DNA from: an archaeon
Lineage (GTDB): Archaea; B1Sed10-29; JAJSAI01
Reading direction: 5' to 3'
DNA length: 16,894 nucleotides
Assembly (NCBI GenBank): GCA_024274695.1
Contig: JAJSAI010000003.1
Span: 1 to 16,894, forward strand
Positions 8,535 through 10,054 of the stretch are shown piece after piece. Every line of letters starts with the position of its first letter. Positions within the stretch are counted from its first letter, which is position 1. The notes beneath the pieces are model-generated. The model made no database searches, was not told the origin of the DNA, and saw only the letters and a list, made by a program, of their open reading frames with translations. The translations under genes and the position numbers were made by a program.

Positions 8535-8591
8535 CGCTGTAAACCCTTGCTTTTCCCTTGAGAGGATAAAAAATAGGGGGTGTGTCATCGC

Positions 8592-8813
8592 ATGGGGAAC
8601 ATGAAGAGGATAGGAAGGGCTGTTTCTATTTCTGACGGCAAGCTCGTGGTCAAGACCGAAAGACTCGTTAAGATAGGGAGCGAGGTCTTCGACGACGCGG
8701 GAAGGCACATAGGGACAGTAGTGGACTACTTCGGTCCGACCATGGGACCCTACGTGCTCGTGAGCCCCAAGAAGGATCCTGCTCCTCTGGTGGGCCAAGA
8801 ACTGTACGGATGA
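8592..8813 (+). CDS. gar1: H/ACA ribonucleoprotein subunit Gar1
   Basis: 73 residues from the ATG at 8592, which has GGTG (8579-8582) as SD; an in-frame GTG at 8580 is the alternative. It is a single small beta-barrel: (MKRIGRAVSIS), KLVV, KIGSEVFDDAGRHIGTVVDYFGPTMGPYVLV, the archaeal Gar1 signature. Gar1 joins Cbf5, Nop10 and L7Ae in H/ACA particles that make pseudouridine in rRNA, and it helps position the enzyme and release product. Next to tfb, a common archaeal arrangement, and co-transcribed with it (10-base gap). Confidence 0.9.
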   Translation: MGNMKRIGRAVSISDGKLVVKTERLVKIGSEVFDDAGRHIGTVVDYFGPTMGPYVLVSPKKDPAPLVGQELYG

Positions 8814-8823
8814 AGGTGATTGC

Positions 8824-9594
8824 TTGCCCCGGAAAAAATCGTCCCCGAAAAGCAAGACGAAAACCGCTGCTAAGACCAGGACAGGAAAGAGAGAAAAAGA
8901 GGCAGAACCTGCTCCTGGAAGGCCCGTGTGTCCTGAGTGCGGGAGCACTAGGATAAGAAGGGACTACACCCGGGGAGAAGTGTACTGCGAAAAGTGCGGT
9001 ACCGTGATCGAGGAGAACATCATAGACTCGGGTCCGGAGTGGAGAGCGTTCGACGCTAGCCAGAGAGAAAAGAGGGTCAGGACCGGCGCACCCATAAGAT
9101 ACACTCTTGCTAACAAGGGGCTCTCGACAGAAATAGACATGTACTACAGGGACTTCAGGGGAGTCAAGATAAGCGCAGAGCAGAGAGCTGCAGTAACCAG
9201 GATGAGGAAGTGGCACAAGAGGACCAGCGTCAGCAGCAGCATGGAAAGGAACCTCACAGTGGCCTTGAACGAGCTGGAAAGGATCTCAAGCCTTCTAGGC
9301 CTATCCCCAAACCTCAGGGAAGCGGCAGCGCTCTTGTACCGGAAGGCCGTCTCCAAGGGGCTGATAAGAGGAAGGCTCATAGAATCAGTAGTGGCGGCGG
9401 TCGTGTACATTATATGCAGGCAGTACAACATCCCAAGGACCCTTGACGAGATCGCGGAAGTAAGCGGGATGTCCAAGAAAGAAATAGGGAGAGTCTACCG
9501 GTTCCTGAAGGCTGACCTGGGAATATCCATGCCCTTGACAAACCCAGTCCACTACGTGCCGAGGTTCGCTTCAGAACTAAAGCTGTCCGGGTAA
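8824..9594 (+). CDS. tfb: Transcription initiation factor TFB, N-terminal 256 residues up to an in-frame TAA
   Basis: TTG start with GGTGAT just upstream. A Lys/Arg-rich leader (1-33) precedes the Zn ribbon C36-x2-C39...C55-x2-C58, which recruits RNA polymerase. The B-reader/linker (about 66-115) follows, then the first cyclin fold (about 140-235), which binds TBP and the BRE. The second cyclin fold begins (NPVHYVPRFASELKLSG), but a TAA at 9592-9594 interrupts it. The next codon starts [12 protein letters not shown]..., the normal continuation of TFB in the same frame. In TFBs this position is usually Glu (SGEVQ), so one G-to-T change of GAA would create the stop. Full length would be 332 codons. 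TFB is essential in archaea unless a paralogue exists; this copy is the usual gar1-linked one. Confidence 0.9.
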   Translation: MPRKKSSPKSKTKTAAKTRTGKREKEAEPAPGRPVCPECGSTRIRRDYTRGEVYCEKCGTVIEENIIDSGPEWRAFDASQREKRVRTGAPIRYTLANKGLSTEIDMYYRDFRGVKISAEQRAAVTRMRKWHKRTSVSSSMERNLTVALNELERISSLLGLSPNLREAAALLYRKAVSKGLIRGRLIESVVAAVVYIICRQYNIPRTLDEIAEVSGMSKKEIGRVYRFLKADLGISMPLTNPVHYVPRFASELKLSG

Positions 9595-9822
9595 GTGCAG
9601 GAAAAGGCAATACAGATCCTGGAAGAGGCCATAAAGAAGGGCCTGATCTCGGGAAGAGGGCCTACGGGCGTCGCGGCAGCCGCAGTATACATCGCAGGAG
9701 TGATGATGGGAGAGAGGAGAACACAGAAGGAAGTGGCGGACGTGGCGGGAGTTACAGAAGTCACTATCAGGAACAGGTACAGGGAGCTCAAGGAAAAGCT
9801 CGGTTTAGACATTCCAGCATAA
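9595..9822 (+). pseudogene. tfb: C-terminal part of TFB after the in-frame TAA
   Basis: In the same frame as the upstream part and starting with GTG directly after the TAA. 75 residues complete the second cyclin repeat: a helix [12 protein letters not shown], then [21 protein letters not shown], then [26 protein letters not shown] (the DNA-contacting helix-turn-helix-like part), ending LGLDIPA as TFBs do. No SD precedes the GTG. It could be made by stop-codon readthrough, by termination-reinitiation at the abutting GTG, or not at all. Conservation looks intact, without further stops or indels, which argues against old decay. The true stop at 9820-9822 is also TAA. Confidence 0.8.
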
Positions 9823-9892
9823 CCCTCCAAACCCCTTTTTAAACCAATCCAAGGAAACCTGTTTTTACCACCAGCCAGGGGTTAAGAGAAAG

Positions 9893-9904
9893 TTTTTTAT
9901 ACTC
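9893..9904 (+). promoter_or_regulatory. Strong TATA box in the tfb-metallopeptidase gap
   Basis: TTTTTTATACTC predicts a transcript starting near 9925, about 130 bases before the next gene, which has its own TATA (TTTTTATT, 10022-10029). It therefore suggests a separate short transcript. Confidence 0.5.
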
Positions 9905-9924
9905 TTCCGGGCCCTACTATTATT

Positions 9925-10026
9925 GCCCGACAGGGGAATGGCTGGACTGCGAGTGTACCTCAATACCTGGGGGCAGGGCACGTCCCTGCCCTTTCTGCTC
10001 ATCTTCTCCTGCTGGAAAACGTTTTT
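9925..10026 (+). ncRNA. Candidate short structured RNA
   Basis: It follows a good TATA box and ends near a T-run (10022-10026). The middle forms an 8-bp perfect hairpin (GGGCAGGG 9971-9978, loop CACGT, CCCTGCCC 9984-9991), extendable by G-U pairs. It is not a tRNA and shows no rRNA, SRP or RNase P features I can recognise. A small protein or a processed leader of the next gene is possible. Identity unknown. Confidence 0.3.
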
Positions 10027-10054
10027 ATTGAGCTCGCCCTTCTTCTATCCTTGA

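Follow-up and report, generated by a model that had tools for sequence, protein, structure and literature searches.

The gene for the basal transcription factor TFB in this archaeal genome (G000) is interrupted by a single in-frame TAA, and we found that this stop is not isolated within its genome. A census of coding frames recovered eight clean in-frame stops in approximately 142,000 aligned codons, five TAA, three TAG and no TGA, each with homology on both sides. We narrowly favor, at a probability of roughly 0.4, the possibility that TAA and TAG in housekeeping genes of this organism are tolerated by readthrough with insertion of a polar residue; the passage across the stop, the residue and the tRNA are what we infer from sequence patterns. 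The main competing explanation is that the stops are assembly or population noise, and the evidence bearing on both is set out below. Coordinates are collected in Table 1, where the window is the whole 16,894-nucleotide stretch of DNA that was analysed.

Table 1. Features of the tfb locus (positions in the window) and the other seven in-frame stops of the genome (contig:position; C5 = L037, C13 = L045, C14 = L046 and L074-L077, C12 = L044, C9 = L041, C32 = L064 and L094)
Feature	Position	Strand	Details
tfb, full frame including internal TAA	8824..9822	+	TTG start, 332 residues and final stop
In-frame TAA	9592..9594	+	predicted loop between first two helices of cyclin repeat 2
Upstream piece of tfb	8824..9591	+	256 aa; zinc ribbon, linker, cyclin repeat 1, first helix of repeat 2; PF08271 and one PF00382 repeat
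Downstream piece of tfb	9595..9822	+	75 aa; starts GTG; repeat-2 positions 26-92, including helix-turn-helix part; PF00382 26-92/92
gar1-like gene directly upstream of tfb	8580..8813	+	Pfam Gar1 2.4e-6, just under cut-off
GlmS	C5:5185		TAG
Valyl-tRNA synthetase	C13:7274	-	TAA
PolD large subunit (DP2)	C14:70042	-	TAG
UbiA-type prenyltransferase	C12:8363	-	TAG
TIGR00297 family protein	C14:85257		TAA
Aminotransferase	C9:5191	-	TAA
uS13	C32:41355		TAA

An earlier note, made from the sequence alone, had claimed full TFB similarity on both sides of the stop in one frame with no indel, and profile searches confirmed this. The TTG at 8824, the TAA at 9592-9594 and the final TAA at 9820-9822 share a frame with no indel; read across the internal stop, that frame matches NCBIfam PRK00423 (TFIIB) with 452 bits (7e-136), and Pfam finds a zinc ribbon (Zn_Ribbon_TF, 35-76) and two TFIIB repeats in it. 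If the TAA is read through, the product thus has the zinc ribbon and both cyclin repeats of a TFB/TFIIB in one frame, and the TAA is what keeps that frame from being uninterrupted. The gar1-tfb gene order is common to the nearest relative (sequence L032), which indicates an ordinary tfb locus. Between tfb and the next gene, at 9890-10030, there is a TATA-like stretch and, after it, a GC-rich hairpin and a run rich in T, which may mark a small RNA; this interval had no Rfam match and folded no better than shuffled sequences.

The same note had placed the stop in the first helix region of cyclin repeat 2, where TFBs were said usually to have Glu. The repeat was correct, but on our reading of an alignment to solved TFB/TFIIB structures, including 1d3u, the site falls in the loop just after the first helix. 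Nor did a preference for Glu hold up, as the residue is variable among nine TFBs of the order (E, P, Q, Q, K, E, T, E and T) and is K in Pyrococcus and Q in human TFIIB. As to the proposed single-base change from GAA to TAA, the codon is GAA in the nearest relative, the MAG Dive96_bin3.463 (G004), which was the only relative returned by a search of the genome collection; among the viral contigs searched there was no relative with the same stop codon. Between these two genomes 68 of 74 residues (92%) of the downstream half of tfb are identical; of the codons that differ, 36 are synonymous and 6 nonsynonymous. This half has therefore been under purifying selection, at least until very recently, and the gene is no old pseudogene; the relaxed constraint expected of a pseudogene was not seen after the stop, although a very recent event would leave no trace.

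Among the TFBs found in 144 archaeal genomes, this TAA is the only stop within the conserved core, and by that comparison it is more than chance. The other TFB stops belonged to matches that overran the start or the final stop, as judged by query ranges, with three inspected. Internal stops reported in the TFBs of G002, G006 and G007 were rejected on the grounds that they are positioned upstream of those genes' starts.

The codon directly after the TAA is GTG, as the earlier note had observed, and it was suggested that a ribosome might halt, restart there and yield two chains that assemble into a two-piece TFB. The adjacent GTG and the predicted position of the break in a loop would suit such an arrangement, but we consider it highly improbable because: (i) the GTG is not preceded by a Shine-Dalgarno motif, whereas GGAGG and AGGTGA are the motifs found most often ahead of start codons in this genome; (ii) the 75-residue chain would be without helix 1 of the five-helix cyclin fold, the first 25 repeat positions being absent and (iii) a split in the core was seen in none of the TFBs from the 144 archaeal genomes with a match. 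Furthermore, a start codon is absent at the break in most of the other interrupted genes, so that nothing specific supports the split.

Another scenario is a recent, true nonsense mutation that is covered by an intact second tfb. We searched for such a paralogue, which the earlier note had also raised, and found that the interrupted gene is the sole TFB in the assembly (825,026 bases in 32 contigs, 91% complete, with four contigs of less than 3 kb read as N). A second copy could lie in sequence absent from the assembly or in those four contigs, and some relatives, among them G002 and G007 of the same order, have two or more TFBs. However, the interrupted copy sits at the usual locus beside gar1, a single TFB is present in each of the nearest relatives (G001, G003, G004 and G005), and a hidden paralogue would leave the interruptions in PolD, uS13 and ValRS unexplained. 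We therefore view this scenario as improbable.

The census compared all coding frames among three genomes of the order, namely G000, G004 and 678 kb of G005. Each of the eight stops in G000 lies inside a single family match, and the genome holds no second copy of these genes closer than a distant paralogue. The valyl-tRNA synthetase (C13:6048-8477) scores with its counterparts from other orders of the class and not with those from its own order, which points to replacement or loss. In G004 there are about ten stops in approximately 142,000 codons, all TAA or TAG save one doubtful TGA, and the genes affected include those for AMP phosphorylase, RtcB, uS7, ScpB, ThrRS, PheS and Rad50; among these stops, the one in a secretion ATPase (D3) sits at the edge of the family match. 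Internal stops were rarer elsewhere, with one in approximately 108,000 codons of G005, one in aEF-2 across about 155 archaeal genomes, and none outside G000 in RpoB', LeuRS and PolD over the 19 genomes of the phylum. The residues aligned to the internal stops are nearly all E, K, R or D, with one S and one or two gaps, and none is aromatic or aliphatic. G000 and G004 share no stop site, every site being private to one genome, and a conserved internal stop was accordingly rejected.

We compared this pattern with random nonsense by simulating every single substitution to a stop codon across the same aligned codons under six mutation spectra. Random nonsense would be expected to give 15-30% TGA and to place 4-29% of TAA and TAG at aromatic or aliphatic sites, whereas the 8 plus 11 stops that were checked by hand include a single TGA, itself doubtful, and no hydrophobic site. 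Jointly, the probability is 7e-5 to 9e-4 in five of the six spectra and 4e-3 under strand-specific G>T, values that have to be discounted because the test was devised post hoc, after the restriction to TAA and TAG had been seen, and low-scoring borderline cases were removed by hand. Taken alone, the scarcity of TGA is not significant (P 0.1-0.5 per genome). Frameshifts numbered 1 in G000 and 3 in G004, and they were rarer than nonsense also after correction for detection, which we calibrated with simulated mutations (41% of frameshifts recovered vs 63% of nonsense). Random nonsense thus fits the stop pattern poorly, and the scarcity of frameshifts argues against ordinary decay.

It is quite possible, even so, that the stops stem from substitutions introduced in sequencing or assembly, or from nonsense variants carried by a minority of the sampled population, in which case tfb would be intact in living cells and its TAA would be noise in the consensus. 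The genome is a draft of 32 contigs, no internal stop occurs in more than one genome, a single substitution separates most sites from the likely ancestral codon (as at the tfb site, with GAA in the nearest relative), and decoding machinery for UAA and UAG was not found. Weighing against noise, eight nonsense changes would imply about one wrong base per 2 kb (taking a 4.1% nonsense share), which is far too many for the consensus of contigs of 40-90 kb; TGA and hydrophobic sites are scarce, and G005, a draft from the same order, has only one stop.

Under the readthrough that we favor, UAA and UAG, and not UGA, would be decoded often enough inside genes of this organism, most likely by a near-cognate tRNA that inserts a polar residue such as Gln, and decoding past the TAA would yield full-length TFB, so that the stop in tfb would be tolerated. 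Consistent with this idea, some relatives, like human TFIIB, have Q at the tfb site, and the downstream half of the gene is constrained. The earlier note had also listed readthrough, and while the restriction to TAA and TAG across the genome speaks for it, neither a cognate tRNA nor a change in aRF1 was found, and there was no stimulatory RNA structure downstream of the stop (z between -1.6 and 0.8). It also counts against readthrough that uS13 and uS7, ribosomal proteins with high output, would need it to be efficient.

No tRNA with a UUA or CUA anticodon was present among the approximately 40 tRNAs recovered, which form a near-complete set from a genome of which 9% is missing. The searches used ARAGORN, the Rfam tRNA model and custom scans permitting anticodon introns, and as none of them returned a candidate a dedicated suppressor tRNA was rejected. 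In G004 many tRNA genes (e.g. L146, L118, L130, L139 and L105) have a 36-104 nt interruption in the T-loop, and the tRNA-Pro near D1:1799-1911 (L105) seems to be circularly permuted, its 3' half lying shortly before the 5' half. An altered release factor was likewise rejected, aRF1 being canonical with intact NIKS, YRCDSTFF and GGQ motifs. The aRF1 frames of G001, G005, G008, G015, G017 and G055 are 860-984 aa long, with the match split near profile position 174, close to the GGQ region, in an intein-like manner, a split that the window's own aRF1 does not have; the PolD large subunit of G001, G005, G007, G008 and G012 shows a similar intein-like split of the match near profile position 850 in one long frame.

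TAA or TAG is found at 267 of 721 gene ends (approximately 37%), with no excess of back-up stops after them, and both codons therefore still terminate. Over-use of TGA at gene ends was considered as a sign that TAA and TAG are avoided and was dropped, as it mostly reflects overlap of TGA with start codons in operons. Given that no cognate tRNA was found, that aRF1 is canonical, that PylS is below cut-off, that TAA and TAG still terminate and that the sites are private, full reassignment of UAA and UAG is excluded. What is left standing is context-dependent or low-level decoding by near-cognate tRNAs, as against assembly or population noise.

There is precedent for tolerated stops in bacteria, where in-frame stops with signs of readthrough are reported to be widespread (Belinky et al. 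2021, PMC7918605). As in that study, the genes concerned are otherwise conserved, evolve under purifying selection and each carry one in-frame stop, and many such stops are short-lived; there, however, all three stop codons were involved, whereas here, in an archaeon, it is TAA and TAG with almost no TGA, in core information genes. Ciliates and other eukaryotes have nuclear codes in which UAA and UAG specify Gln, as discussed in PMC8629427 and PMC5304391. The resemblance is that both codons occur inside conserved genes at polar sites and UGA does not (18 TAA or TAG and one doubtful TGA in our set). In contrast to those codes, TAA and TAG have not been dropped as terminators here and their internal use is very rare, and neither the UUA/CUA tRNA nor the altered release factor was found. 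Archaeal pyrrolysine decoding also places UAG inside archaeal genes, but here UAA and UAG are equally involved, and that possibility was rejected with PylS below cut-off in all three genomes. Our literature search turned up no account of small-genome archaea that tolerate UAA/UAG, though this does not prove that none exist.

If the stops turn out not to be real, the lesson is that claims of single stops in metagenome-derived genomes should be weighed against a census of the whole genome, a step that is both cheap and informative. If they are real, this archaeon survives although the genes for TFB, its replicative polymerase, ribosomal proteins and tRNA synthetases contain UAA or UAG. Such a state has been postulated in models of code evolution, and we found no archaeal report of it. 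A broader proposal, which we consider rather unlikely, is that a small-genome archaeal lineage, comprising at least this genome and Dive96_bin3.463, gives UAA and UAG an ambiguous meaning, reading them as stops where genes end and as a polar residue within housekeeping genes, and does so without a dedicated suppressor tRNA. Were this true, it would be a natural case, in Archaea, of an ambiguous intermediate in the evolution of the code.
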